DNA of 64,000 nt from Microbispora bryophytorum. GTDB lineage: Bacteria; Actinomycetota; Actinomycetes; Streptosporangiales; Streptosporangiaceae. The stretch spans positions 1 to 64,000 of the forward strand of contig NZ_VIRL01000017.1 in assembly GCF_006874465.1 (NCBI RefSeq), given 5' to 3'. The notes beneath the pieces were generated by a model. It did not search any database, was not told where the DNA came from, and saw only the letters and a program-made list of their open reading frames with translations. Positions within the stretch are counted from its first letter, which is position 1; each line of letters starts with the position of its first letter. This document shows positions 25,420-43,326 of the stretch, in pieces. Position numbers and translations under genes: made by a program.

Positions 25420-25432
25420 CCACTGGGGGAGC

Positions 25433-27073: not shown

Positions 27074-27157
27074 AAAGATCAAGGCCCGAGTCGGGGCCAC
27101 TTTCCCGACCCGGGCCTTAGCAGTGAAGCGGGTGACGGGAATCGAACCCGCGCTGTC
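27074..27157 (-). repeat. tRNA-Gly 3' fragment A with terminator (distal att scar)
   Basis: Positions 27127-27157 match the 3' part of the intact tRNA-Gly (T arm and acceptor strand) exactly for 31 bp. The adjacent hairpin 27081-27118 is homologous to the terminator beside the intact tRNA (43209-43246). It is probably the displaced original 3' end of the tRNA and the left border of the island. Confidence 0.75.
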
Positions 27158-27220
27158 GGTGTCACAGCGTGCTCGTAATGGACTTGACGTCCTCACGTCC
27201 ACTCCCGCCATGATCATCAG

Positions 27221-27736
27221 ATGTTCGACTTCGGGATCAGTGGATACAGGCCCGCATGGTTGAGCGGGAGTTCGGCGATCGCTGCCGCGCATGGTCGGAG
27301 GCTGGCCATGCTGGAGGGGCGGAGGCTGACGCGCGCTCTGCTGGTGTGGGATCCCGACGAGGACGTTTGGTTCTCCGATGGCCTGGTCCTGTTGGACTTC
27401 GAGGGCGAGCAGGTCGAGATCGTCCATCAGAAGTTCGATGAGATCTCGATCACGTGGAACATGGTCGATCCGGCTCGGCCGCTGGATTGGGCGGGGGAGG
27501 GATTCCGCCTGGCGTGGCGAGGGGGCGTGCCTGACGATCTGGCGCGATTGCAGGGGCAGAGGCTGCAGGCAGTGGAGCTTCTGACGTGGATGGGGGAGGA
27601 CATGGCCCAAGGAATGGTGGCTGTCGGATTCCTCTTCCCGCACGGCAGAGTGACGATTTACAACGCTCTCGATGAGAACGGCATGGAGTTCAAAGACCCT
27701 GATCGGCGGTATGCGCGCCAGAGGCTCAGCGCGTAG
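27221..27736 (+). CDS. Hypothetical protein
   Basis: A 171-residue protein that I do not recognise. It is acidic, with no membrane segment, and contains a regular strand-rich pattern (LLVWDPDEDVWFSDGLVLLDFEGEQVEIVHQKFDEISITWNMV). The start is ATG 27221; no clear ribosome site is seen. It lies directly beside tRNA fragment A and so may be the first cargo gene of the island. Confidence 0.5.
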   Translation: MFDFGISGYRPAWLSGSSAIAAAHGRRLAMLEGRRLTRALLVWDPDEDVWFSDGLVLLDFEGEQVEIVHQKFDEISITWNMVDPARPLDWAGEGFRLAWRGGVPDDLARLQGQRLQAVELLTWMGEDMAQGMVAVGFLFPHGRVTIYNALDENGMEFKDPDRRYARQRLSA

Positions 27737-27873
27737 TGCTCGTGATCCACCGGCGGGTTCCTTTAGACAAGGCGGTGCCAGTGCTCGGTCTTGCGGCCCG
27801 AGCCGCCGGTGGCCGGGACCGGCCCCAGACCGCATGCCCGGCCGTCGAGCGGGCGAGTGCTGCGAGGCGGCGC

Positions 27874-27912
27874 GGAGCGCGGTGACGGGAATCAATCCGC
27901 GCTGTCAGCCTG
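27874..27912 (-). repeat. tRNA-Gly 3' fragment B (decayed)
   Basis: A degraded copy of the tRNA-Gly 3' half, recognisable by GGTGACGGGAATC and CGCGCTGTCAGC. At 28018 a repeat of the form TGGCACGCGTCAGGCACG follows, like those beside the other fragments. From 27913 to 28259 I see no gene. Confidence 0.55.
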
Positions 27913-28259
27913 GCGATCGGTTGGGGAACTGCCCCTTGTGATCGGAAACGAGGATTTGGCTCAGCGGTGGCCGAGTGACCGTGAGTTCTCGTGAAACACC
28001 GCTGATTACCGTTCGTTCTGGCACGCGTCAGGCACGTGTTTCAGCATCATCCACCGTGCACTTCTTCGGATGACCGCCGCTGAATATTCGGTGGCGTCCG
28101 GAGGCCGAGTGCTACACGATGTGGTCCTTCGCGAGCGCATCGACGGCCGCGTCGGCCAGTAAGCGCCGCCGGACAGAACCATGGCCGAAGGCTGGTTGTC
28201 CGTGACGAGCAAAGGGCCGTGGAAACGGTCGAGGCCCGAGTTGCGCGTACTTGCGTCGG

Positions 28260-28706
28260 TCAGGAGAAGTGGACTTCAGGGGCCGGCCAGGTCCCGTCTT
28301 CGGTGAACTGCGATCCCCAGTAAAACGGGTTCACCTCGCGAAGAGTGCGAGCCCTCCATCCCGTCGCGCTGGAGTCGTCGGGCACGCCGACCTGGACGTC
28401 AGGTCCCCACAGGGCCAGGCGCTCCTGGCAGATGCCACACGGAGGCAGGACGAGGACGCGTTCACGTTCGGGGTCCCGATATACGCACACGGAGGCGGTG
28501 ATCTTCTTATCGAGTGTGTAGGCCTGGCAGATGGCGCCGGTCTCGTGGCATAGGGACACTCCGCCGTTGAGGTTGTCCAGGCCGACGCTGGTGAGGATCT
28601 GCCCGTCGTTCAAGTAAAGGGCCGCGGCACCGCCCTGCTCACCAGGGGGCCATCGCCGATCCATCTGTGCGATGGCCGCGTCGACAAGGTTTTGATCAAG
28701 CTGCAT
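28260..28706 (-). CDS. Cytidine-deaminase-like zinc enzyme
   Basis: A 148-residue protein with both halves of the CDA zinc site: CHE in LCHETGAICQ (Cys ligand plus catalytic Glu) and PPCGICQERL (PCxxC). Length and layout fit cytidine deaminase or the blasticidin-S deaminase group. The substrate cannot be chosen from sequence. The start is ATG 28706, with AGGA 8 nt upstream; the frame continues upstream but without support. It lies between two tRNA-Gly scars, so it is probably element cargo. Confidence 0.8.
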   Translation of the reverse strand: MQLDQNLVDAAIAQMDRRWPPGEQGGAAALYLNDGQILTSVGLDNLNGGVSLCHETGAICQAYTLDKKITASVCVYRDPERERVLVLPPCGICQERLALWGPDVQVGVPDDSSATGWRARTLREVNPFYWGSQFTEDGTWPAPEVHFS

Positions 28707-28840
28707 GTCGGCATCCTGACATATCAAGACGTCGCAGCCTCGCCGACCACCCGGTAGACCGCCCGGGCTCCTACCGCGGTCCACCCGATCTTTGGTCGGG
28801 ATAGGGAGTGTGAGTTGCGGACTCAGCCCTGGGCGCCAGC

Positions 28841-28920
28841 CACCCCGTATGCCGTCGCCCGCCCGAAAAGGGAGCGGACCCGGCGGCCTTGGTCTGCTCG
28901 GCTTGTCCCGGGTCGATGGC
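28841..28920. repeat. Segment repeated at 42785-42913
   Basis: CACCCCGTATGCCGTCG and the following GCCCGAA block, then a 43-bp block (28878-28920) with one C/T and one T/C difference, recur at 42785-42821 and 42871-42913. The right-hand copy has about 50 bp more, which restore a long inverted repeat. It is probably the remains of a shared element end. Confidence 0.6.
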
Positions 28921-29075
28921 TGGGGCCGGACGGGCAGCGGCGTACGGGCAGCGGCGTACGGGCTGCTGCGGGCGGTGCTGATGACGGCGGTCGAAGAGGA
29001 CCACATATTCCGCGCAACCCATGCCGGATCCGCAGGGCCGGCGACGAGCACGTGTAGGAATGGCCGGTCCTCACC

Positions 29076-29288
29076 GTGGCTCTGATCTTCGAGCCGGCCG
29101 ACCTCGTGGGCCGTCGTCGTGTCGGCAAGGTCCGCACGCTCAAGAACGGGGCGTACCGGCTCCGTTTCCAGCGGCACGGGGAGACGCGTACGCACTTCGA
29201 GGTCTTCCGGACTCGGGCGGCCTTCGGCGAGCGCTCCACGGGTGAACTGGTCATCGGGCTGTTCCGGCTTTCGGCGACTGCCCCATGA
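29076..29288 (+). CDS. Small hypothetical protein
   Basis: A 70-residue basic protein, GTG start, with GC-rich third positions. It has an Arg-rich strand pattern (GKVRTLKNGAYRLRFQRHGETRTHFEVFRT) and no known motif that I recognise. No strong ribosome site is visible. It could be real or a remnant. Confidence 0.35.
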   Translation: MALIFEPADLVGRRRVGKVRTLKNGAYRLRFQRHGETRTHFEVFRTRAAFGERSTGELVIGLFRLSATAP

Positions 29289-29328
29289 GCGAGATCAAGC
29301 CGGGGCACGTCCGTGAACCCCCCGACAC

Positions 29329-29961
29329 CTAAAGTAGTTTGTCGCGCGCGTAGGCGGCGGCTTCCGTGCGGTTGCGAACGCCGATCTTGGCGAAGGCGTT
29401 GTTGATGTGCGTCTTGACGGTCGTCTCCGCGATGAAGAGGGCCGAACCGATCTCCGCGTTGCTCAGGCCCCTGGCGACGAGCCTCAGCACCTCGACCTCC
29501 CGCACCGTCAGCCCGTCGGGACAGGCCGTGACCGGCGGTGGTGTGGCGCGAGACAGCGCGTCGACCAGCCGGCGGGACACCGCGGCCGAGAACGTCGACT
29601 GCCCAGTGGCGGCGGAGCGGAGGGCGGCGGCGATTTCAACGCGTCCGGCATCCTTGGTGAGATAGCCGCAGGCCCCGGCCAGCAGGGCGGAGTCCACGGA
29701 CTGGTCATCGTCGTAGGTGGTCAACACCACGACGACCACCTCTGGGTACTCGCGGGTGATCCGCCGTGTGGCCTCGACGCCGTCCATCACGGGCATGCGC
29801 AGGTCCATGAGCACGATGTCGGGACGCAGCTCGGCCACCAGCCTCAGGGCCTTTTCGCCGTCCCTGGCGTCGCCCACCACCTCCACGTCGTCAACCAGGT
29901 CCAGCAACGCCACCAGGCCCTCGCGCATGAGCTGCTGGTCGTCTACGACCACAACCCTCAC
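29329..29961 (-). CDS. NarL/LuxR-type response regulator
   Basis: A 210-residue protein with a receiver domain (DD at 7-8, phospho-Asp53 in LMDLRMPVMDG, Thr in LTTYDD, Lys in YLTKDAG) and a LuxR HTH near the C-terminus (LTVREVEVLRLVARGLSNAEI..TTVKTHI). The start is GTG 29961, which overlaps the kinase TGA and has GGAGG 7 nt upstream. It is the partner of the histidine kinase 29958-31064. Confidence 0.93.
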   Translation of the reverse strand: MRVVVVDDQQLMREGLVALLDLVDDVEVVGDARDGEKALRLVAELRPDIVLMDLRMPVMDGVEATRRITREYPEVVVVVLTTYDDDQSVDSALLAGACGYLTKDAGRVEIAAALRSAATGQSTFSAAVSRRLVDALSRATPPPVTACPDGLTVREVEVLRLVARGLSNAEIGSALFIAETTVKTHINNAFAKIGVRNRTEAAAYARDKLL

Positions 29962-31064
29962 TCTGGCACCTCCGCTCGCACTTCCCACAGGCCACCCGCC
30001 GGTCCAGCGATCAAGGTCCCGCCCGCGAGCGCCAGCCGCTCACCCATGCCTTGCAGGCCGTGCCCGGATGAGGCCGCCGCGCGTCCGGCCGCGCACGGGT
30101 TGCGCACCACCAGCCGAACGGCGTCCTCGCCGTAGCCGAGCTTGATCGTGATCGGCTCGCCCGGGGCATGCTTGGCGGCGTTGGTCAGCGCCTCGCGTGC
30201 CGTACGCAGTAGGCAGACCTCCGCCGCCGGGGGGATCGGCCGCCGCGTGCCCGTCGTGCGCAGCTCGGCGGGCACGTCATGGTCCCTGCGGTGCTCGGCG
30301 ACCAGCAGATTGAGCGCGTCGGGCAGCGGCGGTACGTCCTCGCGCAGGGCCGCCACCGCCGAGCGTGCCTCGACCAGCCCCTCCCTAGCCAGAGCCCGTG
30401 CCCTGTGGATGCGCGTCAGCGCTCCTTCCACATCGCCTCGCTCGGAGAGCAGGGCCTCGGCGACCTCCAGCTGCACCCCCAAGGCGCCGAGGGAGTGCGC
30501 GAGCACGTCGTGGAGCTCCCTGGCGATGCGAGCCCGCTCGTCGAGCGCCATGGCCCTGACCCGGTCCTGCTGGGCACGGCGGTAGTGGCGCCGATGCAAC
30601 GCGAAGAGCACGGCGCACATCATGACCGCCCCGCGAACCACGATCGCCGATCGCGGCTGCTCCCACCACAGCATGCTGCCGACCATGAGAGCCAGGTCGC
30701 CCGCGGTAACCGCGACGATCGCTCCCATGCTCGGCGTCACGTGCGCCACGAACAGCAGCAGTGTCGCGAACAGCAGGACCGTGGGCGCCGCCTCGGCCGA
30801 TCCTGAGACCGACGCGGCGATCGCCGAACCGGCCGCGAGCAAGGCCATGGCTACGCGCGGAAATCGGCCGTCGAGCAGGACGAAAGTCAGCCAGCACGCC
30901 ATAGATGCGCCGAGCGCCGACCACACCAGCGCGGGAGCGCGATCGGGCGAGGCGGTCGCGAGCGACCAGGCGAAGACCAGGCTCATCAGCAGCCTGACCA
31001 GGCGGCCGGTTTCGGGGTCGTCGGCCGCCAGTAGCCGCACGACCCGCTCCCGCACCTCCCGCAT
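29958..31064 (-). CDS. NarL-type sensor histidine kinase
   Basis: A 368-residue membrane kinase. About five transmembrane helices fill residues 25-155. A HisKA_3 region follows, with His185 in ERARIARELHDVLAHSLGALG, then a HATPase domain (REALTNAAKHAPGEPI, GHGLQGMGERLALAGG). The start is ATG 31064. It is downstream of a small membrane ORF (gap 3 bp) and coupled to the response regulator by GTGA overlap. Confidence 0.93.
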   Translation of the reverse strand: MREVRERVVRLLAADDPETGRLVRLLMSLVFAWSLATASPDRAPALVWSALGASMACWLTFVLLDGRFPRVAMALLAAGSAIAASVSGSAEAAPTVLLFATLLLFVAHVTPSMGAIVAVTAGDLALMVGSMLWWEQPRSAIVVRGAVMMCAVLFALHRRHYRRAQQDRVRAMALDERARIARELHDVLAHSLGALGVQLEVAEALLSERGDVEGALTRIHRARALAREGLVEARSAVAALREDVPPLPDALNLLVAEHRRDHDVPAELRTTGTRRPIPPAAEVCLLRTAREALTNAAKHAPGEPITIKLGYGEDAVRLVVRNPCAAGRAAASSGHGLQGMGERLALAGGTLIAGPAGGLWEVRAEVPE

Positions 31065-31067
31065 CGC

Positions 31068-31259
31068 CTAGCGCGAGTCCTTCAAGGTCAGAATCATGTC
31101 CACCAAGATAACCCGGAAGGCCACGAAGCCGGCGATCACCAGCAGGGCCACGACCACGATCGCGAGCAGGAGCTTGCCGTTCATCTTTCCCCCGTTGGCG
31201 TCCAGGAGCCGGTGCAACAGGTCGAGCCAGATGCCCGACCGTCCGAAGCGTTTGTCCAT
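31068..31259 (-). CDS. Small single-pass membrane protein
   Basis: A 63-residue ORF ending 3 bp before the kinase. It has an amphipathic N-terminus and one strongly hydrophobic helix (LLLAIVVVALLVIAGFVAFRVILV). ATG 31184 with GGGGGAAAG just before it would give only 38 residues and is an alternative. It may be an accessory subunit of the kinase (inferred from position only). Confidence 0.45.
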   Translation of the reverse strand: MDKRFGRSGIWLDLLHRLLDANGGKMNGKLLLAIVVVALLVIAGFVAFRVILVDMILTLKDSR

Positions 31260-31546
31260 GCCTGGAAGGTAGGGAGAGGGTGGGGTGGAGCGGCACCACC
31301 GAAGGATGGAGAGCGGGATGGAGCTCGACGTTGCCAGTACGCGGAGGGCGGAGTTGAGACTGGAGTCCTTGGCAGGCACCGGCAGCAGGCACGCTCGAGG
31401 GGGAGCCGACACCGGCGACCTGGCCCGCTGGTGCGGAGCTAGGCAGACGGAATGGTGAGATCGTCGGCATCAACCCCTGAGCTCTCCATCGAAGCCGGGC
31501 GCTTCACTTTTGTTCGTGAGCTCCTGGGCTGGCTCAGATTCTTGCG

Positions 31547-31894: not shown

Positions 31895-31938
31895 CTCGCA
31901 CCTCTCTTTCGACAAACATCGTACAGGGTGATAAGACT

Positions 31939-31954
31939 TTCGTAGTACTACGAA
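31939..31954. promoter_or_regulatory. ArsR operator palindrome
   Basis: TTCGTAGTACTACGAA is a perfect 16-bp palindrome in the 80-bp gap between divergent arsR and the oxidoreductase. It is the probable site for ArsR autoregulation and control of the oxidoreductase. Confidence 0.8.
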
Positions 31955-31974
31955 CGTCGAAATAGGAGTTCGGG

Positions 31975-32970
31975 ATGCGCGCTTTGGTGATGACAGCACC
32001 GTCACAGGGATCGGACCGCACACAGATCCAAGAGATCGACACACCCCGTCCGGGCCCAGGAGAAGTGACCATCGATGTCGCCTACGCAGGGGTGAACTTC
32101 CTCGACGTGATGGCGCGCCGCGGCGACGTTGGATACGTGCCTGCCTGGCCGTATGTTCCGGGACTTGAGGTAGCCGGCACTGTACGCGAGGTTGGCGCGG
32201 GCGTCAGCGATCTCACCGCTGGACAGCGGGTGGCCGCGTTCACTCCAGGAGGTGGCCTGTCCGAGGTCGCACTCACGCGTGCGGTGCTCACCGTACCGAT
32301 ACCAGACCAGATCTCGTTGCTCACGGCAGCAGGCACCCCGATGATGTTCTCAACCGCCTTGCTACTGCTGACCGACTCCGCCAGGCTCGGCCCCGGTGAC
32401 AATGTGCTGGTGCATTCGGCCAGCGGTGGTGTGGGCAGTGCTCTCGCGCAGTTGGTGCCCGCGATAGGCGGGGGACTGCTCATCGGCACCGTCGGTCGCC
32501 CTGACAAGGTCGCCTCGGCGCAGAAGAGCGGCTACGACGTCGTGATTGCTCGTGGCGATGGTCTGATCGAGGCGGTACGTGCGGCCACCGGAGGGGGCGG
32601 CGTCGATGTCGTCCTGGACCCGCTGGGCACCAGCATGCTCGATGTCGATCTGGCGGTCACGGCGCCCGGCGGACGGATCGTGCTGTTCGGCAATGCCGGC
32701 GGAGGGCAGCCCGCTCCGCTTCCGCCCGCGGGCAAACTCATTGGTGGCAACGTCGCGATCGGCGGGTTCAGCATCAGCAGTCTGGGCGCTTCCGCTCCCG
32801 AGCGTGTCGCCGCAGCCCTGCGCCGCGTCCTGGACATGATCGCGACCGGTCGGCTCGACGTTGCCGTCACCAAGGTCGACTCACTCGCCGACGTGCCCGC
32901 CGTGCACCAGCTGCTCGCCGACGGCCGCGGCAACGGCAAGTACGTGACCCGAGTGACCTCCACGGAATAG
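31975..32970 (+). CDS. Zinc-independent MDR quinone oxidoreductase-like protein
   Basis: A 331-residue NADPH-dependent MDR enzyme: an N-terminal GroES-like domain (PGPGEVTIDVAYAGVNFLDVMARRG, VPGLEVAGTVREVGAGV) and a Rossmann domain with HSASGGVGSALAQL and GTVGRPDKVASAQ. The zinc-ligand Cys residues of alcohol dehydrogenases are absent, as in quinone oxidoreductases. ATG 31975 has AGGAG 7 nt upstream. The divergent ArsR with its palindrome implies induction by an electrophile or redox stress (inferred). Confidence 0.9.
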   Translation: MRALVMTAPSQGSDRTQIQEIDTPRPGPGEVTIDVAYAGVNFLDVMARRGDVGYVPAWPYVPGLEVAGTVREVGAGVSDLTAGQRVAAFTPGGGLSEVALTRAVLTVPIPDQISLLTAAGTPMMFSTALLLLTDSARLGPGDNVLVHSASGGVGSALAQLVPAIGGGLLIGTVGRPDKVASAQKSGYDVVIARGDGLIEAVRAATGGGGVDVVLDPLGTSMLDVDLAVTAPGGRIVLFGNAGGGQPAPLPPAGKLIGGNVAIGGFSISSLGASAPERVAAALRRVLDMIATGRLDVAVTKVDSLADVPAVHQLLADGRGNGKYVTRVTSTE

Positions 32971-33047: not shown

Positions 33048-33091
33048 TGGAGCGGGTGACGGGAATCGAACCCGCGCTGTCAGCTTGGGAA
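33048..33091 (-). repeat. tRNA-Gly 3' fragment C
   Basis: An exact 44-bp copy of the intact tRNA from the encoded CCA end to the anticodon loop (ending TTGGGAA on the plus strand). After that it diverges. A GAGCTGGGAAAC motif follows within about 35 bp, as it does beside D; E and F have diverged versions. Confidence 0.85.
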
Positions 33092-33190
33092 CAGGCTACT
33101 GATCTTACTGTGCTGAGCTGGGAAACAAGGGTGCAGGTCAAGGCCGGTCGAGCCCTTGGGGCCGGTCGGCGCGCGGGCGTGGACGCGCGC

Positions 33191-34291
33191 TCATGTCCGC
33201 CGTGGTGCGGCCGGTCGCCACCGTCGGGGAACTTCGAACAGCCACGTCGCGCGCACTGCGAGCAGCCCGCGGTGGATCGCCAGGCTCAGGCCGATCACCA
33301 CGGCGGTCAGCAGAATCGGATACTCCGCCACCGTAAGCGCCTGTCCGCCGCCGCCCAGCCCGGACATCGGACCGACGAGGAACCCGTGCAGCAGGGCGAG
33401 CAGGGGCATGTGGATGACGTAGATCGGCAGCGTTCGTCGTCCAAGGGCGGCGAGCGCGTCACCCACCGGCCGCCACCTGCTCACTCGCTCAGCTGCGGTG
33501 ACGCCGAAGGCCACCGCCGCGACGGACACCGCCGGCCACACCCCCACCCAGCGCTGACTGCCGGCCACGGCCATGACCGTCAGCGCCGCGGCGTACACGG
33601 CGAAGGTCAGGGCCAGGCGGCGGTTCGTGGCGGTCGCCGCCCACCGTTCGACGTACGGCTTGAAGTACAGACCGCCGAGGAAGAACACCAGGTTCTGGTA
33701 GACGCCGCCGCGGTCGCCCGGGGTGGCGAGCACGCCGGCGGCCGTGATGACGGACAGGGCCGCGGCGGCTGCGAGGATCACCGGCCGCGGCGCCCGTCGT
33801 ACGGCTTTCGCGAACGCGAAATAGAGCGCGAGGGCGTACAGGTACCAGAGGTTGGAGGGGGTGATGGTGAGCTGTTCCACCAGCCCGAGCACGGAATCGG
33901 CGTGGGCGGTGGGGAAATCCGGGACCGCGGCCAGGATCGCGGTGTGGATGAGCAGCCAGACGGCGTACAAGTACAGGAATTTGGCGACCCGGGATCTGCC
34001 CAGCACGCGCCACGGGCGATTTACGGCGTTTGCTGCGAAAACCCCTGAGATGGTGAAGAACAGCGGCATCCGGAGCGGCAGGAACTGCTCGCCCAGGGTT
34101 CCCCAGGCACTGGGGACGGGAGAGCCGGCGTGCCAGCTGATCTGCAGATAGTCCTTGACGATGACGTGCCACAACACCACGAGGATGATGCATGCGCCCT
34201 TGGCGACGTCCGCCCACTGTGCCCGTTGCCGGGACGCATCGGCGCCGGGCGCGGTCGGGGCGTTCCCGGCGTGAATCCGAACGGTCGTCAC
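33191..34291 (-). CDS. Acyltransferase 3 family membrane protein
   Basis: A 366-residue membrane protein with about ten helices. It opens with ADVAKGACIILVVLWHV, the acyltransferase-3 His-containing first helix, followed by LPLRMPLFFTISGVFAA and GRRTLPIYVIHMPLLALLHG. Members O-acylate sugars or lipids on the membrane. The start is GTG 34291 with AGGAGAA upstream. It lies within a block flanked by a 23-bp direct repeat (33131-33153, 36428-36450). Confidence 0.9.
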   Translation of the reverse strand: MTTVRIHAGNAPTAPGADASRQRAQWADVAKGACIILVVLWHVIVKDYLQISWHAGSPVPSAWGTLGEQFLPLRMPLFFTISGVFAANAVNRPWRVLGRSRVAKFLYLYAVWLLIHTAILAAVPDFPTAHADSVLGLVEQLTITPSNLWYLYALALYFAFAKAVRRAPRPVILAAAAALSVITAAGVLATPGDRGGVYQNLVFFLGGLYFKPYVERWAATATNRRLALTFAVYAAALTVMAVAGSQRWVGVWPAVSVAAVAFGVTAAERVSRWRPVGDALAALGRRTLPIYVIHMPLLALLHGFLVGPMSGLGGGGQALTVAEYPILLTAVVIGLSLAIHRGLLAVRATWLFEVPRRWRPAAPRRT

Positions 34292-34583
34292 GATTCTCCT
34301 TGGTCAGCGTGAGGAAGGGCGCGCCGGAGCCCCCGGGCGGCTGATTCGGTTTCCGGCCGGGTTTCCTGTTTCAGGGGGCAGCGGCCTGTCAGGGCCAGGG
34401 CGCGCGGGGGTGGGAGGTTCCGCTGAGCGGACCGGGGGGCCTCCCGAAGGCGGCTGTCGGCTCTGGAGAAGCTTCGCTGCCGGGCCCGGGACGGCGCATC
34501 GGCCCCTGGGCAGGGATCTGCCCGGCACCGGCTCTGCCTTTCGGCCGATATCGGCATCCCGCACTCTGACTACGCTGGTCACG

Positions 34584-35774: not shown

Positions 35775-36409
35775 TTCGAGTGGTGATCGCCGACGACCAG
35801 GCCATGGTCCGGACCGGCTTCAGCATGATCATCGACAGCCAGCCGGACATGGAAGTGGTGGGCGAGGCGGCGGACGGCGTGGCCGCGGTCGACCTGGCCC
35901 GGCGGCTCCGGCCCGATGTGGTGTTGCTGGACATCCGGATGCCCCGGATGGACGGCCTGGAGGCGCTCCGGCTGCTGGCGGGCAAGGGTGTCGCCGACCC
36001 GATCAAAGTGGTCGTGGTGACCACCTTCGATCTCGACGAATACGTGCACACGGCGCTGAGCACCGGCGCGTGCGGGTTCCTGCTCAAGGACTCGGGGCCG
36101 GCACTGCTGGTGGAGGCGGTCCGGGCGGCGGTGTCGGGCGATGCCATGATCAGCCCTTCGATCACGGTGCGGCTGCTGAAGCACCTCAGTCCCCCGGCCC
36201 GGGCGCACGACGACGCGGGCCTGTCGCCGCGGGAACTCGACGTGGTGAAGTTGATCGCCCGAGGCCTGACCAACGCGGAAATCGCCGAGCACCTGTTCAT
36301 CGCCGTCGGCACCGTCAAGACGCATCTGGGCAGCGTGCATATGAAGCTGGGCGCCCGCAACCGGGTGGAGATCGCGGCCTGGGCGTGGGAACACCGCCTG
36401 GTCGATTAA
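35771..36409 (+). CDS. NarL/LuxR-type response regulator
   Basis: A 212-residue partner of the preceding kinase: a receiver with Asp54 in LLDIRMPRMDG, VTTFDLDEYV and FLLKDSGP, then a LuxR HTH (LSPRELDVVKLIARGLTNAEIAEHLFIAVGTVKTHL). The start is GTG 35771 overlapping the kinase stop. Confidence 0.93.
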   Translation: MIRVVIADDQAMVRTGFSMIIDSQPDMEVVGEAADGVAAVDLARRLRPDVVLLDIRMPRMDGLEALRLLAGKGVADPIKVVVVTTFDLDEYVHTALSTGACGFLLKDSGPALLVEAVRAAVSGDAMISPSITVRLLKHLSPPARAHDDAGLSPRELDVVKLIARGLTNAEIAEHLFIAVGTVKTHLGSVHMKLGARNRVEIAAWAWEHRLVD

Positions 36410-36701
36410 GCCGCCGGGCTACGGCGGTGCAGGTCAAGGCCGGCCGAGCGACCGTGAGTCCCCGCGATTCACCGCCGGAACAGAGACGGAACTGAGGTCC
36501 AGTTCGGGCCTGCTCGCTGAACTGTTGACCGTCAGCGCCCCCGATCCTGGCCATCGTGGAGACGCGGGGGGCCGCGCGCAGGATCTACGTGCGCTGACCT
36601 GGGTGGGGCCGGTCGTGAGTAATCGTGGCCGACCCCTCGTCAGCGGTCCCGGTGCCTGAGGTCTGTCGGTCGACTTGTCAAAAAGCAACCACGGTAGGTT
36701 C
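36410..36701. other. Gene-free att-flank remnants
   Basis: There is no gene here. Positions 36428-36450 repeat 33131-33153 with one mismatch, next to a GACCGTGAGTCCCCG stretch that also follows tRNA fragments D and E. A GGCCGGTCGTGAGT stretch at about 36608 recurs beside fragment F. It looks like an att flank without the tRNA part. Confidence 0.5.
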
Positions 36702-37280
36702 TCACCGCTCCGGCCCGCCGCGGCGCCAGGACGATGGCACCGTCCGGCCGAGGGGCTTGTAGTAGCTGAGCAGGATGGTCACGAGCAGCACCCCGGAAGC
36801 TCCCCCGGAGTCCTTGACCAGCCCGTACGTGTCTGAGGGAACTCCTCCGGCCAGTGCCACACCGGCGGCCGCGGAGAGCGTGGGCACGAGAACGAACACG
36901 GCCAGCAGCGTGCCGCCCGCGGTGAGGACCAGCGAGATGAGCACCCACCAGTAGCGCAGCAGCCCCCACGGGGTGAGCAACCCCAAGGCGACGCCGGTGG
37001 AGAGGGCGAGCAGCGCCAGGGGCAGGACGAGGAACTCGCCGAGCATGTATCCGGCCGGATAGACGGTCAGCGGGTTCGACCCCTGCCACCCCGCGACGGC
37101 CAGAGCGAGTACGGCGGCGTCGGCACCCAGCAGTCCCAGCGAGGCGACCACATGCACGATCCGCAGTGCCTTGCGCCAAGGCGGTGACAACCGCATCCTG
37201 GGCCGGCCGTGGGGCTCACGCCTGCCTGCCGGCCGTCCTCCCGCCCGCTCTGGGAACCGGGGGTCGGCGGTGCTGTTCAC
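36702..37280 (-). CDS. Four-helix integral membrane protein
   Basis: A 192-residue protein with a basic N-terminal tail followed by four hydrophobic helices, beginning WRKALRIVHVVASLGLLGADAAVLALAV. The opening helix with KxLRxxHVxxS resembles DUF2269-like membrane proteins, a loose match. The start is GTG 37280 with AGGAAGGG upstream. Its start lies 22 bp after the carboxylesterase stop on the same strand, so it is probably second in a two-gene transcript. Confidence 0.7.
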   Translation of the reverse strand: MNSTADPRFPERAGGRPAGRREPHGRPRMRLSPPWRKALRIVHVVASLGLLGADAAVLALAVAGWQGSNPLTVYPAGYMLGEFLVLPLALLALSTGVALGLLTPWGLLRYWWVLISLVLTAGGTLLAVFVLVPTLSAAAGVALAGGVPSDTYGLVKDSGGASGVLLVTILLSYYKPLGRTVPSSWRRGGPER

Positions 37281-37301
37281 TGGAGGTCCCTTCCTGGTCG
37301 G

Positions 37302-38900
37302 TTACGACGCGTGCTGCGGGTGGCGCCAGAAGGCGCACTGGTGACTGCTCACGAAGTTCACCGGATGCACACCTTGCGGACCGGACGCGAGCGAGAGGAC
37401 CGTACCGCCGGAGTGGTAGGCCGCCCAGTGGGGTAGCCCCGGCAGGTTGGGATCGCCGGTCGCGGCGAAACGCGTCCAGTAAGCGATCATGTCGCGCGAC
37501 AGCCTCTCCTGTGCGGGAGAGAGCGCCAGAGGCGGGTTAGGGCCCTCCATGAGGTACGGCAGCTCGGCCGCGTGCCCGGCTCCGAGCGGGAGGCCGACGA
37601 TTTCCTGCCCCGAGCTCTCGGCGAACTCGAAGGCATAGACGGGGGCACGCCAGGCCGCCGCGTCGTCCGCCGGAAGTTGCGAGCAGGCGCCCAGTTTCGC
37701 GCCCCAGTCGGTCAGCACGGTGGCCAGTGCGAGGCTCGGTGTGGGGAAGCCGGCGACCGGATAACGATCGAGCACGGCGTCGGCGTCGTCCCCGAAGAGG
37801 TCGGCGAGTATCTCCGGATACTGCTGTGCCGTCACGGGTCGGCCCTGCGCGTCGAACTGCACTGCCACGAAAGGCCGCATCTCGTCATGGGTAGCCCCTT
37901 GGAGGAGGGGGACCGGCGCGGCCAGGCCGCGGCGCAACGCCTCCAGCGGCTGCGTCGGCAGCGCAGGCGTGCCCGCCGTGAAGATCCAGGGCATGTCACC
38001 GATGCGGGCGGTCGCGGTGAAGACCTGATCGGAGCCGATGGGGAGCAGTTCGGCCACGGGCTTGGCCCGCAGGCACGCCGCAGTCCGGGTGGCGCACCCG
38101 AGGTCGGCGGCGATCTTCGTGGCCCGCGCCCGCGCCGCCGCCCGGGTGACGAAGGCGTCGCCGCAGGGGCCGCTCTCCACGATCGCCTTCTGGAACAGGC
38201 CGCGCGATCCAGGCGCTGCCAGATGGGCGCACACGCTGAAACCGCCCGCCGATTGGCCGAAGATCGTCACGTTGGCGGGATCGCCCCCGAAGGCCGCGAT
38301 GTTGCGCCGCACCCAGCGCAGTGCCGCCTGCTGGTCGGCGAGCGCGTAGTTGCCCTCGTACGGGTCGCTCATGGCCGGATGGTCCAGGTAGCCCAGGGCT
38401 CCCAGCCGGTAGTTGAGTGTCACCGTGACGACCTTCCCCTGGGTGGCCATCCGGCTCAGGTCGTACTCGCTGCCCGCGCCCGCCACGAACCCGCCGCCGT
38501 GGATCCAGACCATGACGGGAAGCCGCTCGGCCGGCCGGGAGGCAGGCGTGGTGACGTTGAGGAACAGGCAGTCCTCATCGCCGAGCGGCTGCGGTGGCCG
38601 ATCGGGGCCGCCTCCGTCAAGCTGGGGGCAGGGACTGCCGGGTTTGGTGGCGTCACGCACGCCTGCCCACGTCGGCGCGGGGCCCGGCGCCCGCCACCGC
38701 CGATCGCCGGTCGGCGGCGCCGCGTACGGGATCCCAGAGAACGTCCGGTGGTCGGAGCCGGGAAGACCGTGCACGGCGCCCTGGGCGGTTCGCACGAGGG
38801 CCGGATCGTGATCGCCTGCCACCCGTGCGTGGGCCACGCCTCCGCCCAGCGGAACCATCAGGACGGCGGCGAGGACAAGCAACAGCGGCTTTCTACGCAT
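37302..38900 (-). CDS. Secreted type-B carboxylesterase
   Basis: A 532-residue alpha/beta-hydrolase. Signal peptide MRRKPLLLVLAAVLMVPLGG.., GIPYAAPPTGDRRWRAP, EDCLFLNVTTPA, oxyanion loop WIHGGGF, catalytic Ser in FGQSAGG, and His in GAGHAAELPYL are all present. Such enzymes cleave esters of varied substrates. The start is ATG 38900. It is cotranscribed with the small membrane protein downstream. Confidence 0.93.
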   Translation of the reverse strand: MRRKPLLLVLAAVLMVPLGGGVAHARVAGDHDPALVRTAQGAVHGLPGSDHRTFSGIPYAAPPTGDRRWRAPGPAPTWAGVRDATKPGSPCPQLDGGGPDRPPQPLGDEDCLFLNVTTPASRPAERLPVMVWIHGGGFVAGAGSEYDLSRMATQGKVVTVTLNYRLGALGYLDHPAMSDPYEGNYALADQQAALRWVRRNIAAFGGDPANVTIFGQSAGGFSVCAHLAAPGSRGLFQKAIVESGPCGDAFVTRAAARARATKIAADLGCATRTAACLRAKPVAELLPIGSDQVFTATARIGDMPWIFTAGTPALPTQPLEALRRGLAAPVPLLQGATHDEMRPFVAVQFDAQGRPVTAQQYPEILADLFGDDADAVLDRYPVAGFPTPSLALATVLTDWGAKLGACSQLPADDAAAWRAPVYAFEFAESSGQEIVGLPLGAGHAAELPYLMEGPNPPLALSPAQERLSRDMIAYWTRFAATGDPNLPGLPHWAAYHSGGTVLSLASGPQGVHPVNFVSSHQCAFWRHPQHAS

Positions 38901-39467: not shown

Positions 39468-39483
39468 TCAGCTCTGGCCGAAT

Positions 39484-39518
39484 GGCGGGAATCGAACCCG
39501 CGCTGTCAGCTTGGGAAG
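39484..39518 (-). repeat. tRNA-Gly 3' fragment D
   Basis: A 35-bp match from the T arm to the anticodon loop (GGGAATCGAACCCGCG ... TTGGGAA). It is followed by a GAGTCACCGCGAGTCCCC block and TGGCACGCATCTGGCACG near 39621, direct repeats that could be integrase arm sites. From 39640 to 39757 I see no gene. Confidence 0.8.
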
Positions 39519-39757
39519 TCTTTCAAGATCAAGCCGTCCCAGCTGGGAAACCGTTGACCTGGGCCTATGGCGGTCGAGTCACCGCGAGTCCCCGTGGTTG
39601 ACTGCTGATCGCCGTCCGTTCTGGCACGCATCTGGCACGTGATTAACGTCGCCGGGGCGATCTTGGCGAGCAAGCACGATCGAGAAGTGGGCGCGGGGGT
39701 AGGACTGGCATCCGTTCCCGCCGCGGGTTACCATGGAGTGCATATACCATTGACGGT

Positions 39758-40129
39758 ATGCCGCAGTGGGAGATTGACCTAGAGCCGGAGGTGGAGTCTT
39801 GGCTGGACGGACTTTCCTTTCCGCTCTACCAGCGGGTCATGCGGAACGTAGACGACTACCTCGTCACTGGTGGCATCCCTGATGGGGATCACGTAAAGAA
39901 GCTGAAGGATGCCGAAGGTGTGCACGAGCTGCGTGTTGCTCTCGACCGCACGACCTGGCGGTTGACCTTCTGGAAGCCGTCCAACAAGGTGATCGTGATC
40001 CTGACCGTCTTTCGCAAGACACAGGATGGGACGCAGACCGCCGACATCGACCGAGCGATCACTGCTAAGAAGCGGTGTGAGGCAGAGCACGACCTAACCA
40101 CCACGCACGTGTTCGAGAGGAGCGCATGA
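39758..40129 (+). CDS. RelE/HigB-like (Gp49-type) toxin
   Basis: A 123-residue protein: EVESWLDGL, then VKKLKDAEGVHELRVALDRTTWRLTFW and ILTVFRKTQDG, the pattern of phage-Gp49/HigB mRNA interferases. ATG 39758. An ATACC..GGTAT inverted repeat (39744-39759) overlaps the start region and may be the operator. It precedes and overlaps the XRE antitoxin, the toxin-first order of HigBA. Lower GC than the core genes suggests transfer. Confidence 0.85.
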   Translation: MPQWEIDLEPEVESWLDGLSFPLYQRVMRNVDDYLVTGGIPDGDHVKKLKDAEGVHELRVALDRTTWRLTFWKPSNKVIVILTVFRKTQDGTQTADIDRAITAKKRCEAEHDLTTTHVFERSA

Positions 40130-40482
40130 TGAGTCACAGCCGTTGGGAGACCTACAAGGCGAAGCGTCTGCGCGCGATGGAAGCGGATGCGCAGCCCCAC
40201 TCCGAATACGAGCAGGCGGGCCGTGACTTGGAGCTCGGAGACCAGTTGCGTGAGATCCGTAAGCGCCGAGGCTTGTCTCAGAAGGTCGTAGCGGAGCGCT
40301 CTGGCATGTCTCAACCCGCCCTGTCTCGCATCGAGGGCGGTGGCGGCATTCCGGATATAGCGACACTGCTGCGCCTCGGTGCGGCAATGGGGGTTCGGTT
40401 CCGCGTCGAGCTCGTCGTCGATGACGACACCACCGAAGTCGAGCCTCTGAGGTTGCATCACCGGCAGCTCGCGACCGCATAA
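40126..40482 (+). CDS. XRE-family HigA-like antitoxin
   Basis: A 118-residue protein with an HTH in the middle (LREIRKRRGLSQKVVAERSGMSQPALSRIE). The start is ATG 40126 (or 40129), overlapping the toxin stop with AGGAG just upstream. It neutralises the toxin and likely represses the operon (family knowledge). Confidence 0.88.
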   Translation: MMSHSRWETYKAKRLRAMEADAQPHSEYEQAGRDLELGDQLREIRKRRGLSQKVVAERSGMSQPALSRIEGGGGIPDIATLLRLGAAMGVRFRVELVVDDDTTEVEPLRLHHRQLATA

Positions 40483-40640: not shown

Positions 40641-40686
40641 TGGAGCGGGTGACGGGAATCGAACCCGCGCTGTCAGCTTGGGAAGC
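40641..40686 (-). repeat. tRNA-Gly 3' fragment E
   Basis: An exact copy of the tRNA from its CCA end to the anticodon loop, about 45 bp. GAGCTGGGTAAAC and a GAGTCACCGTGAGTTCCC block follow, then GGGCACGCAACGGGCACG near 40788. From 40483 to 40640 and 40690 to 40840 I see no gene. Confidence 0.85.
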
Positions 40687-40840
40687 CTTCCGAGATCACG
40701 CGCCCTGAGCTGGGTAAACGCTGACCTGCGCCTACGGCGGTCGAGTCACCGTGAGTTCCCGATAGTTCCCGCTGGTCGCCAGCCGAACGGGCACGCAACG
40801 GGCACGGGCGGTCGACAGGAGTGCCGTGGAAGGTCCCTAA

Positions 40841-41362
40841 TCAAGAGCCCGCCTGCTCCTCGAAGCCGGGAAACCAGGAAACATCATCATCCCTCTCCTC
40901 AGGGGGCGGTGGGAGGATCGTAGACAGATCCTCATCTATTTCGATCTTGTATTGCGTAGCTATCGCGGCAATGTAAAAGCCCATGCGAGACCGCAGATCA
41001 CCCAGTGCAAGGCCGAACCGGTTGGCTCCAGTCGGACCCATCTGGAATCCGAAGTTCCTGCCTCCCGGTCCAGCGGCATCAACAAAGTTGCGGCATGTGG
41101 CCCGCATGGCCTTGAGGATGTGGCGGAGTTCTCGACCTACTCCGTCCCGTCTGAGCTGTTCCGTGAGGAAGGTCCTGATCTGGAGGGCCGAGTGAACGCA
41201 GTCGCCTTCGTCGTCAACATGCCGATCGCCGAAGAGGAGCCTACGGTCTTCCAGGAAGACGATCACCTCGTTAGCGATCTTTCGGTCTGTGCTTGTCTTC
41301 TGCCATTGAATGCCGAAGCCCGGCAGGCTCACGCCTGTAACTTCATAAGGGATGCGACCCAT
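40841..41362 (-). CDS. Conserved-type hypothetical protein
   Basis: A 173-residue cytoplasmic protein: GRIPYEVTGVSLPGFGIQWQK, then VIVFLEDRRLLFGDRH, a helical middle and a Pro-rich acidic tail. It recalls an actinobacterial family of unknown function, but I cannot name it surely. The start is ATG 41362. It is the only gene between tRNA fragments E and F, so it is probably cargo of one element. Confidence 0.7.
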   Translation of the reverse strand: MGRIPYEVTGVSLPGFGIQWQKTSTDRKIANEVIVFLEDRRLLFGDRHVDDEGDCVHSALQIRTFLTEQLRRDGVGRELRHILKAMRATCRNFVDAAGPGGRNFGFQMGPTGANRFGLALGDLRSRMGFYIAAIATQYKIEIDEDLSTILPPPPEERDDDVSWFPGFEEQAGS

Positions 41363-41454
41363 ACGCTTGAGCGTAGTGTCCGCTTACGCCGATCGGAGTG
41401 GAATCACGGTCAGTAGCATGCACGAGGTGGGCATGACCTCATGAGCAGCCGGAA

Positions 41455-41492
41455 TCTGGCGATGGAATCGAACCTGCGCTGTCAGCTTGGGA
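41455..41492 (-). repeat. tRNA-Gly 3' fragment F
   Basis: A slightly decayed copy (GGAATCGAACCTGCGCTGTC .. TTGGGAAG). It is followed by GAGCTGGGATTC, GGCCGGTCGTGAGT, and TTGCACGCTAGTTGCACG at about 41582, almost identical to the repeat at 43163 beside the intact tRNA. Confidence 0.8.
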
Positions 41493-41635
41493 AGTGTATG
41501 GATCAGGGCTCGTAGGGCCGCTGAGCTGGGATTCGGGCCGGTCGTGAGTGACCGTGGTTGACCCTTCGTCACCCTGTCTAATTGCACGCTAGTTGCACGG
41601 TGATCTTGCTGTGGTGCAGCCAGTACGCTCCTGTC

Positions 41636-41884
41636 GTGTTGACCGTGCAGTGGCCCGATGACTTCGGTGACTATGCCTGGGAGGTTGAGGCCAAGGGCTG
41701 GTTCGAAGGCGTCACGGTGGAGTGGAACGGGGCGCGTATCCGACCTGTGTTCTACGATCCGGTACGGCTGAACCAAGAGATCTCGGATGAGCTCGCCGGC
41801 GGCTCCTACTTCCGGGAACCCAACCTCATCGTGATCGAGAAGGTAACGCGTGATCACATGGAGGTGGCCATCGCTGCCCTCTAG
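41636..41884 (+). CDS. Small hypothetical protein
   Basis: An 82-residue acidic protein (LTVQWPDDFGDYAWEVEAKG, NLIVIEKVTRDHMEVAIAAL). The start is GTG 41636; TACGCT ends 6 nt before it and no ribosome site is seen, so it may be leaderless. It lies between tRNA fragments F and G. The function is unknown. Confidence 0.6.
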   Translation: MLTVQWPDDFGDYAWEVEAKGWFEGVTVEWNGARIRPVFYDPVRLNQEISDELAGGSYFREPNLIVIEKVTRDHMEVAIAAL

Positions 41885-41915: not shown

Positions 41916-41957
41916 GAGCGCGTGACGGGAATCAGGCCCATGCGGTCAGCTTGGGAA
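41916..41957 (-). repeat. tRNA-Gly 3' fragment G (decayed)
   Basis: GTGACGGGAATC and GGTCAGCTTGGGAA are kept while the T-arm part is altered. It again ends at the anticodon loop. Confidence 0.65.
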
Positions 41958-41987
41958 TTGCAGGGAACACGAGCAAGGGGAGGCCAT

Positions 41988-42670
41988 ATGCCTGAGAACG
42001 GAACGGCTGCGGGCAAGGACTCTGCGAGTGAAACGCGGACCTTCTCTGCGCTGCCGAAGCAGACGGAGGACGGATCGGAGCCCTTCCACAGGTGCGTGGC
42101 CGAATTGATCCGGCTGTTCGGGATCGAGGTCACTCCCGTGCCGGGTGCGCGCACGTGGGTATCGCAGGCGCGAGTAGCGATTCGCAAGGATTCGCCACGC
42201 GATCGGGACTGCCGGGGGAGTGCTTCGACGCGCTGATCGAGGCGGCGGTCTACGACCCGAACCCGAGTTTCAACCGCGTGTTCGTCGAGTCGGCTCTGAA
42301 TGCCTTCGGGCGTCGCCGTGTCCAGTTGGCGCTGCTCGACTATCTGCGAACAGGCACCGACCAGGAGCGCGCGGGCTCGGCACGGGCGTGGTACTGGTCG
42401 GCCCTCCCTCTTCGGCTTCTGCACTTGAGCGCAGAGATGCCGGCCAACGCCGAAGAGACGGCCGAGGCCATCTGGCACGAGTCCGCGCTGCGCGAGTTCA
42501 TCCGCAATGAGCACGTGGACGTCCGGCGTTGCATCCTTCCTGGTCTGCCGCTCTTTCCAAAGGCGTACCCGCCGGAACTTCACACCCTCATCGACACCGC
42601 GGTGGCGATCGCCCGATCGCATCCCGACGAGTACATCCGCCACCGTGTTGAGATCCAGATCCACCACTGA
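41988..42670 (+). pseudogene. HEAT-repeat-like protein gene with a frameshift
   Basis: ATG 41988 has GGGGAGG 5 nt upstream. Its frame reads to about 42188 (ELIRLFGIEVTPVPG..ARVAIRK) and then loses sense. The next frame continues FATRSGLPGECFDALIEAAV, NPSFNRVFVESALNAFGRRRV and RAWYWSALPLRL to a stop at 42670. Joining the frames near 42189 gives one protein of about 226 residues with helical repeats. A one-base loss (or two-base gain) is the simplest explanation. It starts just after fragment G. Confidence 0.6.
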
Positions 42671-42784
42671 CCAACCGCTGGAGAAGCAGGAACGGAGTGG
42701 CGGAAGACTGGCAGCGCAGCCTCATTAGACAACGATCAGCTCGTGACGTCTCCTGCGTGGCGCGCACGCCTCGCCACCCTGATC

Positions 42785-42913
42785 ACCCCGTATGCCGTCG
42801 ACCCGCCCGAAGGGGAAGCGGGCCAAGACCGCCGGGTCCAGGTGGAGCGCCCCGCGGACGAACGACCTGGACCCGGCGGTCTTGGTCTGCTCGGCTCGTC
42901 CCGGGTCGATGGC
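42785..42913. repeat. Element-end segment with a perfect 21-bp inverted repeat
   Basis: Positions 42823-42843 and 42865-42885 are exact reverse complements (21 bp, 21-nt loop), a strong hairpin. The flanking blocks repeat 28841-28920, where the left arm of the hairpin is missing. It may be an element terminator or a recombination site. Confidence 0.65.
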
Positions 42914-42988
42914 GGGCGGGGTGATCAGGCCCTACCTCAACCACCTACGGCCGAGTGACGGTGAGCATGCCCTTGGCGATCACCCGGC

Positions 42989-43162
42989 CTCAAGGACCTG
43001 ATGGCCCGGATGGGGCACGACAACGTCCGGGCGGCCATGATCCATCAGCACGCTGTACGAGGTGCCGACAGAACGATCACGGACGCGATCGACAAGCACA
43101 TCGGCGGGGCCGGTGACGAGGGCGGGGATGGCTCGGCAGGCGTCCCGGTCCCCGTGGGCTAA
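42989..43162 (+). pseudogene. C-terminal fragment of a tyrosine integrase
   Basis: The frame gives LKDLMARMGHDNVRAAMIHQHAVRGADRTITDAIDKHI and ends at TAA 43162. Active relatives read GHxxVRAALIYQHAT with the catalytic Tyr; here that residue is His (CAT codon). Everything upstream of the GH box is absent. TTGCACGCTAATTGCACG follows the stop directly, then the tRNA terminator and the tRNA. It is the remains of the element that last occupied the tRNA. Confidence 0.8.
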
Positions 43163-43208
43163 TTGCACGCTAATTGCACGGAAGATCGAGATGACCTCAG
43201 AAACAATC

Positions 43209-43246
43209 AAGGCCCGGGTCTGGGTTCCTGTCCTGACCTGGGCCTT
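43209..43246 (-). terminator. tRNA-Gly terminator
   Basis: Inverted repeat AAGGCCCGGGTCTGG / CCTGACCTGGGCCTT with two mismatches, just downstream of the tRNA on the minus strand. A homologous hairpin accompanies fragment A. Confidence 0.7.
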
Positions 43247-43252
43247 CGCTCG

Positions 43253-43326
43253 TGGAGCGGGTGACGGGAATCGAACCCGCGCTGTCAGCTTGGGAAGCTG
43301 ATGTTCTGCCATTGAACTACACCCGC
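43253..43326 (-). tRNA. tRNA-Gly (CCC anticodon)
   Basis: A 74-nt gene with encoded CCA. The acceptor stem is GCGGGTG / CACCCGC, the D arm is GTTC..GAAC, the anticodon stem TCAGC/GCTGA encloses the loop TTCCCAA (anticodon CCC), and the T arm is CGGGTTCGATTCCCG. It is the target of repeated integration to its left. Confidence 0.97.

Follow-up and report, generated by a model that had tools for sequence, protein, structure and literature searches.

How does a tRNA gene come to have seven partial copies of its own 3' half lined up beside it, with genes lodged between them? The question is raised by a 64,000-nucleotide stretch of the Microbispora bryophytorum genome (contig NZ_VIRL01000017.1, positions 1 to 64,000; here called the window), in which an intact tRNA-Gly(CCC) gene follows such a series. 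We consider it probable that the region is an array of gene-sized units akin to cis-mobilizable elements (CIMEs), captured and shuffled at tRNA-Gly(CCC) by the integrases of actinomycete integrative and conjugative elements (AICEs). The features that point this way can be read from the sequence: the anatomy of the array, the attachment arms that its units share, the recurrence of units with the same limits and different neighbours, the transfer of some units between genera, and the presence of AICEs at the same site. Other genomes and loci are referred to by working numbers (G001, L012, etc.).

Scars, arms and limits of the tRNA-Gly(CCC) array

The first 44 bases of the tRNA-Gly(CCC) 3' end were compared, ungapped, with every position of the window on both strands. 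Eight matches of 29–44 of 44 were found, all on the plus strand. A preliminary description of this DNA had reported seven partial 3' halves in one orientation to the left of the intact gene, and all seven are where it placed them. Their best matches start at 27124 (scar A, 36/44), 27873 (B, 29/44), 33048 (C, 44/44), 39474 (D, 37/44), 40641 (E, 44/44), 41450 (F, 33/44) and 41914 (G, 35/44). Because nothing above 25/44 was found in the remainder of the window on either strand, chance can be excluded as the origin of the eight copies. A repeat finder recovered the eight-copy family too, with spacings of 749, 5175, 6426, 1167, 809, 464 and 1339. Genome-wide, the 201-bp tRNA region has 12 matches, namely the eight array copies and four on other contigs that are probably other tRNA genes. 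In scars C–G the match runs through TTGGGAA, the anticodon loop as read on the plus strand, and then diverges from the tRNA, just as first described. Scar B reaches this point only imperfectly, and copy A stops matching sooner, at CGCGCTGTC, and is missing its right arm along with part of the core.

A well-kept scar consists of a left arm, the tRNA half and a conserved right arm of ∼120 bp. Sequences to the right of scars in related genomes fall into recurring types, I (gtctttcaagatca...), II (taggctactgatct...), III (ttgcatggatcac...) and a rarer IV. Hidden Markov models (HMMs) of types I–III were built from 16, 30 and 21 scars of other genomes, with the tRNA half and the window left out. With these models, right arms are recognized behind five scars (B, C, D, E and F) and at two hidden sites (Table 1), all on the plus strand; a further match, short and weak, lies at 43151–43185, and the reversed window gave none. 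When aligned to AICE arms, those of D and E (against G001) and of F (against G005) each scored above 100 shuffles. The direct repeat GCACG-N5-GCACG occurs within 180 bp to the right of 68 of 129 scars, compared to 252 of 7800 random segments, and in 5 of 22 scars of no clear type; it is plausibly an integrase arm site.

On the other side, a terminator-like left arm (cctgacctgggcctt) is found to the left of many scars in related genomes, and the left arms of the window's E and tRNA-side copies resemble the "terminator" of A. This feature had been taken to mark A as the displaced original end of the tRNA. We reject that view: the feature is present at many scars and is a left arm, and A is a scar that has lost its right arm. 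The cassette to the right of A (27153–27754) is also present in G073, where its type II arm is complete, and in G005 and G008, where only part of that arm is kept.

All 14 other Microbispora genomes searched share the dcd flank, while the left side varies strongly in length and content. This agrees with the earlier view that related elements have integrated again and again at a tRNA-Gly hotspot. Similarity to the left flank of relatives stops at ∼25.93–26.07 kb, by 26065. Since the ilvD/YccF similarity ends there, the variable region spans about 26.07–43.25 kb, rather than beginning at 27.07 kb as originally proposed. The gene at 26142, initially regarded as the chromosomal neighbour of the tRNA, thus falls inside it; 26066–27073 has no match of at least 150 bp in the eight related stretches compared, to which the search for this open reading frame (ORF) was confined.

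No empty site was found within the genus. Outside it, G059, G027 and G057 have a lone tRNA in the stretch fetched, but they cannot serve as matched empty sites, as no ilvD turned up next to that tRNA. In G009, blocks between bases 3 and 25421 of the window are matched, with collinearity to ilvD; neither an arm nor a scar with 11 or fewer mismatches in 40 was detected there, yet 33 kb separate ilvD from tRNA-Gly, with an integrase remnant next to the tRNA. Nor does ilvD adjoin the tRNA in all relatives, the best ilvD match being on another contig in G002 and G006.

Within the window, units D–E, E–F and F–G gave no integrase, Rep or translocase matches in scans with family models, and the tRNA-adjoining unit has an integrase remnant only. 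D–E and E–F are bounded by retained attL and attR sites (core plus arms). This does not hold for every unit: F–G ends in the decayed scar G, and A–B begins at the armless A. The array in the window has probably fallen dormant and decayed in part.

Table 1. Features of the window around tRNA-Gly(CCC)
Feature	Position	Strand	Remarks
Left flank: ilvD (23671–25419) and YccF gene (25544–25933)	23671..25933	+	Common to other Microbispora
290-aa ORF	26142..27014	+	Variable region, left of scar A; no Pfam match
Scar A	27126..27157	+	Left arm and part of tRNA 3' half; core remainder and right arm absent
171-aa gene, unit A–B	27221..27736	+	Cassette also in G005, G008, G073
Scar B	27875..27916	+	Degraded core; right arm (type IV-like) continues to ∼28050
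Cytidine deaminase, unit B–C	28260..28709	-	NCBIfam NF006155, above cut-off
Integrase fragment (internal), unit B–C	28953..29220	+	86.6% to integrase gene region of G005
Response regulator and histidine kinase, unit B–C	29329..31064	-	
Zinc-type alcohol dehydrogenase family gene, unit B–C	31975..32970	+	
Scar C	33050..33091	+	Perfect core; right arm type II-like at 33093–33155
Unit C–D cargo: acyltransferase (-), histidine kinase and response regulator (+), carboxylesterase (-)	33191..38900		
Hidden type II right arm	36421..36476	+	No tRNA half; arm-only HMM, E 2.5e-11
Hidden type III right arm	36586..36642	+	No tRNA half; arm-only HMM, E 9.3e-9
Scar D	39476..39517	+	Type I right arm 39518–39640, 99/125 identical to G001 AICE arm
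Toxin-like protein, Gp49/RelE-HigB type, cassette D–E	39758..40129	+	Pfam PF05973; open frame; G029 counterpart
Helix-turn-helix (HTH) antitoxin-like protein, cassette D–E	40126..40482	+	
Scar E	40643..40684	+	Perfect core; type I right arm 40686–40806, 106/125 identical to G001 AICE arm
DUF6650 protein, cassette E–F	40841..41362	-	
Scar F	41452..41493	+	Strong from 41464; type III right arm 41495–41610, 91/109 identical to G005 AICE arm
100-aa ORF, cassette F–G	41582..41884	+	No match in Pfam or NCBIfam
Scar G	41916..41957	+	Decayed
ORF, tRNA-adjoining unit	42092..42670	+	No match in Pfam or NCBIfam
Tyrosine integrase C-terminal remnant	42965..43162	+	84% and 82% identity, over part or all, to open integrase frames or fragments elsewhere
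Left arm of tRNA-adjoining unit	43201..43249	+	Terminator-like inverted repeat
Intact tRNA-Gly(CCC), the integration site	43253..43326	-	ARAGORN; dcd flank kept in 14/14 other genus genomes
dcd (dCTP deaminase-like), right flank	43377..44021	+	

ARAGORN also calls a tRNA-Val(tac) at 27125–27209, which overlaps scar A and looks like a spurious call built on the tRNA-Gly half, and a tRNA-Arg(cct) at 26687–26781, inside the ORF at 26142, which looks spurious as well. A GC-rich repeat with inverted arms is present at 42784–42916 and 28841–28923 (82–94% alike), and similar stretches occur in several related units. To the left of the array, 5 kb of the window (8007–13086) is 90.3% identical to 27541–32599 of the oriented G118 region, where the counterpart sits between two scars as the cargo of a 6.7-kb unit in another genus.

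Arrays, cargo and recurrent cassettes in related genomes

Thirteen of the 15 genomes of the genus have at least two tRNA-half matches on one contig. G009 and G012 have one each, and in G012 the contig ends beside it. We then searched one-per-species genomes for the scar-plus-arm pattern (types I and II) and obtained 71 stretches, including one actinomycete metagenome-assembled genome. By title, they come from Microbispora, Nonomuraea, Herbidospora, Planotetraspora, Acrocarpospora, Planomonospora, Planobispora, Sphaerisporangium, Microtetraspora, Thermoactinospora and Actinocorallia. Families are grouped here according to GTDB; in the NCBI taxonomy, Microbispora belongs to the Streptosporangiaceae, and Actinocorallia is assigned to the Thermomonosporaceae, a sister family. 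Among 394 genomes sampled across the class, 12 had the pattern (types I–III), every one of them from the window's family; by manual count, 41 rows of this sample belong to that family and 353 to others, none of which was positive. In a sample of the family itself, 220 of 250 genomes match the tRNA half (the tRNA itself counted), and ∼95, counted by hand, have at least three matches, not all on a single contig.

Units were cut at scars of no more than 11 mismatches in 40, which gave 117 closed units between neighbouring scars (39 contigs, 28 genomes), 94 of them at most 4.2 kb long. One caveat here is that 10 of 130 scars have at least 8 mismatches, and some of these may be false. Moreover, the array genomes were drawn mostly from match-rich ones among the matches listed, so the unit statistics do not describe a random sample; high-count genomes such as G036, G201 and G084 are not among the arrays analysed. 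Unit length ranges from 379 to 18160 bp (first 107 units, before three more arrays were added) and scar number from none detected in G009 to 13 in G156 (Acrocarpospora pleiomorpha), where 12 scars have at most one mismatch and the thirteenth is weak. Such length variation is what the hotspot proposal had called for. No scar in the opposite orientation was seen in 36 contigs and two further arrays.

Scar-plus-arm sequences also occur away from the tRNA-Gly array, in L133 (G013:C1, near 3051485), L134 (G003:C1), L135 (G007:C33), L136 (G011:C26) and L137 (G008:C34); no tRNA-Gly gene was found in these stretches, and the G003 copy has the VapBC cassette described below. Several contigs end a few hundred bases past a scar (L012, G001:C8; L013, G001:C66; L014, G002:C32; L019, G004:C172), and for this reason draft assemblies probably break in arrays and under-count them.

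Of 170 ORFs called in the small units, seven were excluded as integrase fragments, and the scan covered 150 of the other 163. Pfam matches include PIN (8), HTH_3 (7), DUF6461 (6), Gp49 (5), SMI1_KNR4 (4), DUF433 (3), DUF5615 (3) and some transposases, and many small cassettes carry toxin–antitoxin genes. For a control, 54 flanking ORFs were scanned, and these gave mostly other families; PIN, Gp49, DUF433 and DUF5615 are absent from the 25 control families listed of 100, among the rest of which single matches could be hidden. Toxin–antitoxin genes are thus likely enriched in cassettes relative to flanks. PADLOC matches to the 150 cassette ORFs are spread over 40 families, with few members each and many HTH by name, and we do not claim defence islands.

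Clustering on cargo identified 10 recurrent cassettes, comprising 25 units, each present in 2–6 species. No neighbouring unit was met twice, a count in which G004's neighbours and G005's left one lie off the contig or stretch. The clearest of these cassettes encodes VapB and VapC. Its length is 886–888 bp in five Microbispora, and the version in G029 (Planomonospora) measures 918 bp; additional copies, partial or away from the tRNA, occur in G010, G003:C1 and G007:C17. When the five Microbispora copies were aligned with 150 bp of flank, mean identity was 0.25–0.66 left of the core, 0.98 at the core, 0.71–0.78 in the arm, 0.80–1.00 in the genes and 0.38–0.66 right of the second core. That the arm is less alike than the genes could reflect arm exchange or weaker constraint. 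The VapB and VapC frames are open in all six copies. The rate of synonymous substitution (dS) exceeds that of nonsynonymous substitution (dN) in every VapB and VapC pair computed, the VapC of G005 not being included, and likewise for the window–G029 toxin and antitoxin described next.

Cassette D–E has a counterpart of 1163 bp in G029, with 86.8% identity over 1244 bp including the arms, compared to 69.5% to 82.1% for flanking stretches (one stretch of 332 bp reaches 90.1%). For this pair of genomes, dS is 0.14 for the toxin and 0.21 for the antitoxin versus 0.42–0.65 for four flanking genes. The corresponding values are 0.33 and 0.42 versus 0.43–1.16 (three flanking genes) for G118, and 0.27 and 0.42 versus 0.46–1.11 for G156; these two cases are weaker, because the antitoxin value is close to that of the lowest flanking gene. 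Another cassette gene, in G007 (7610–8200, DUF6461-type by cluster), has a dS of 0.23 relative to G156, whereas that of dcd is 1.08. To judge from these divergence values, some cassettes have moved between genera.

AICEs at the tRNA in relatives and a proposed origin of the array

AICE-sized units adjoin the tRNA in several genomes, e.g. G001, G005, G008, G181 and G029. In G005, G001, G008 and G181, these units end in open integrase frames of 439–461 codons, which lie at a distance of 84–106 bp from the tRNA core; the G008 integrase is more distantly related. The 12.4-kb unit of G005 encodes a GntR regulator, an FtsK/SpoIIIE-type translocase, RepSA, an excisionase and an integrase (models PF00589 for the integrase, PF20199 for RepSA, PF01580, and TIGR01764 for the excisionase), while the scores for the NCBIfam RepSA and TraB equivalogs are below their cut-offs. 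By predicted gene content, this unit is a pSAM2-like AICE. It has a type III right arm, and the AICE of G001 a type I right arm. At E ≤ 1e-60, 13 of 15 genus genomes match the integrase, though many of these matches are partial or fall in a related integrase at another place. A Nonomuraea gerenzanensis record has an integrase of 80% identity at its tRNA-Gly, in a 10.7-kb unit, and two further scars. At the window genome's own tRNA no AICE was found, the window containing only integrase fragments.

The G005 integrase (L021:16347-17684) has an apparent second N-terminal arm-binding-like stretch (residues ∼10–50) before the catalytic domain; the local alignment score of the duplicated stretch is 69, and by eye the G008 integrase lacks the copy. 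We also considered other vehicles. A phage origin was rejected, with the scar pattern (types I and II) found in no viral contig and all 1170 integrase-matching phage records below 60% identity. A free plasmid form was rejected as well: one of 93 plasmid records exceeds 60% identity, and this 11.85-Mb record, from Nonomuraea gerenzanensis, looks like a chromosome.

Tyrosine integrases cross over within a 7-base overlap between attB and attP, and the arms of attP bind the integrase. Here the overlap is presumably the anticodon loop. From this, we infer the recombination steps, the helper role of an AICE integrase, the origin of the units by deletion and the reason for their toxin–antitoxin cargo as follows. 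An incoming pSAM2-like AICE, or a circle with the same attP, would recombine with the tRNA across the anticodon loop, restore the tRNA with its own 3' half and shift older units leftwards. One side of the insertion would then read old flank, half and the newcomer's right arm, and the other side left arm and restored tRNA. The first of these junctions would become a scar made up of the older unit's left arm, the tRNA 3' half and the newer unit's right arm, and repeated integration would generate the scar grammar observed. Gene-sized cassettes may arise by internal deletion of AICEs, and those with useful or addictive cargo, such as toxin–antitoxin pairs, would persist and spread. Because well-kept scars keep the integrase arm sequences, units without int, xis, rep or tra could still be excised, moved and shuffled, given an AICE with a fitting integrase, which would cut out cassettes between two scars; they might move singly or together with the AICE. 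Recurrence and intergeneric transfer are indirect signs that a related element may mobilize them in cis or in trans.

A number of observations weigh against this account, and several of them are expected if AICEs merely integrated in succession and decayed in place, each unit being a dead remnant that never moved again. This would be standard accretion, and decay of AICEs between repeats has been reported in Streptomyces, in the available text of that study (PMC9513070). Integrase C-terminal fragments are retained at many unit ends, as decay predicts. Armless remnants exist: scar G and copy A have no right arms and scar B is degraded. At G, the arm-only HMMs recognize no right arm and the arm score is below that of shuffles; at C, comparison with the six sampled AICE arms gave scores no higher than those of shuffles. 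No integrase match at E ≤ 1e-60 was obtained in either G002 or the window genome. In most pairs, the units resemble each other no more closely than the flanks do, cassette identity being the higher in only 25 of the 114 pairs with a flank value and in 13 of the 35 where the flank is below 85%. For VapBC, dS between G029 and the Microbispora copies is 0.8–1.1, with no sign of recent transfer of that cassette; within Microbispora, 9 of 10 pairs are 2.5–5.5 points below flank identity, and the G005–G011 pair is ten points below (98.5% flank, 88.5% cassette). One stretch, L122 (Planotetraspora kaengkrachanensis), has a scar on the plus strand at 254 and others on the minus strand at 1500, 3174 and 6460, the sole mixed case of the 71 named stretches and a possible result of inversion or a second array. 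No circle or excision was seen in the sequence data. Nevertheless, independent deletions would not produce cassettes that agree in size and ends from one species to another while differing in their neighbours, cassette genes can be far closer between genera than flanking genes (the HigBA-like pair of the window and G029, the DUF6461-like gene of G007 and G156), and reading frames are conserved with dS above dN. Decay in place throughout is therefore unlikely in our judgement. The initial proposal of repeated integration and partial loss is upheld as regards the hotspot, and does not account for cassettes with the same limits that recur across species and genera beside different neighbours.

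If units do travel, they may do so purely as passengers, with an AICE excising and transferring neighbouring units as a composite, and the order changing later through homologous recombination or loss. Accretion with cis-mobilization is a documented route for such tandems, at least in the accessible parts of the relevant reports (PMC5704250, PMC9513070). The AICE-sized units beside the tRNA are in line with it, as is G011, where the unit containing G005's right-hand VapBC neighbour sits on the left of VapBC. Taken alone, however, the passenger view explains neither why no neighbour was met twice among recurrent cassettes nor the cassettes at sites away from the tRNA, and we hold it to be possible, with the chances somewhat against it. 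With similar reserve, we put forward tentatively that the tRNA gene is the docking site of an integron-like gene-capture platform, at which AICE integrases would excise and insert single-gene circles in trans, drawing on a family-wide circulating pool of toxin–antitoxin-rich tRNA-half cassettes. The likeness to integrons and to clusters of attC sites lacking integron integrases (CALINs) lies in the gene-sized cassettes, their single orientation, growth at one end and toxin–antitoxin cargo, and some integron arrays rely on an integrase from elsewhere, according to the available text on them (PMC11389934). To a true integron with IntI and attC we assign next to no probability. With 18.1 bits for TIGR02249, the model of integron integrases (cut-off 265), the integrase falls outside the IntI family, and what the units have in common as a site is half a tRNA flanked by conserved arms. 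On the integrase, the integron is an analogy only. Four scars folded as single-stranded DNA gave z values of -0.44, -0.86, -0.82 and -2.22, and no clear attC-like fold was found in these four, no dedicated attC model being used.

Relation to known tandem arrays and significance

CIMEs and the accretion and mobilization of integrative and conjugative elements are established, and tandems of a few larger elements are described in the part of the review available (PMC5704250). Like CIMEs, the units here lack integration and transfer genes, keep att sites and stand in tandem beside an autonomous element at one site. Unlike those covered in that part, they are often gene-sized, number up to a dozen in a row and include cassettes that recur across genera. 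In Streptomyces, the accessible text describes one to three AICEs and an old trace at tRNA-Arg, with decay between direct repeats (PMC9513070); shared with our arrays are RepSA, an FtsK/TraB-like translocase, Xis and Int, several elements per tRNA and remnants between direct repeats, whereas our arrays are long, consist of small cassettes and occupy tRNA-Gly throughout a family. A 2011 survey of AICEs, in its available portion, called it unclear if one site can be shared by different AICEs so that tandem arrays arise (PMC3218068). The ssrA islands of Dehalococcoides are also tandem units bounded by copies of the end of a small-RNA gene; 15 of 31 lack an integration module and were suggested to be cis-mobilizable (PMC3146451, available text). 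They differ in their serine recombinase, tmRNA gene, 20-bp repeat and reductive dehalogenase cargo, and the same text states no duplicate islands within a strain and describes no gene-sized toxin–antitoxin cassettes. Islander, which demands an integrase per island, lists 4 tandems of at least three among 3919 islands, according to the part of its description available (PMC4383910).

No description of such an array was found in the open-access literature searched. Accretion is already known, and it is the scale and the cassette form that look new. The units are CIME-like; their size, number, recurrence and family-wide pool make the array work like a cassette array. Finders that demand an integrase for every island would collapse such arrays. 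Because the cassettes are delimited almost to the base, they offer a ready map for collecting cargo genes of unknown function.

If our reading is correct, integron-like stockpiling of small genes would be possible without integrons, and a tRNA-targeting integrase whose elements shed their machinery while keeping their att arms would suffice to build the stockpile. The Streptosporangiaceae are a family known for antibiotic producers, and the same process would account for gene-sized pieces without mobility genes travelling between its genera.

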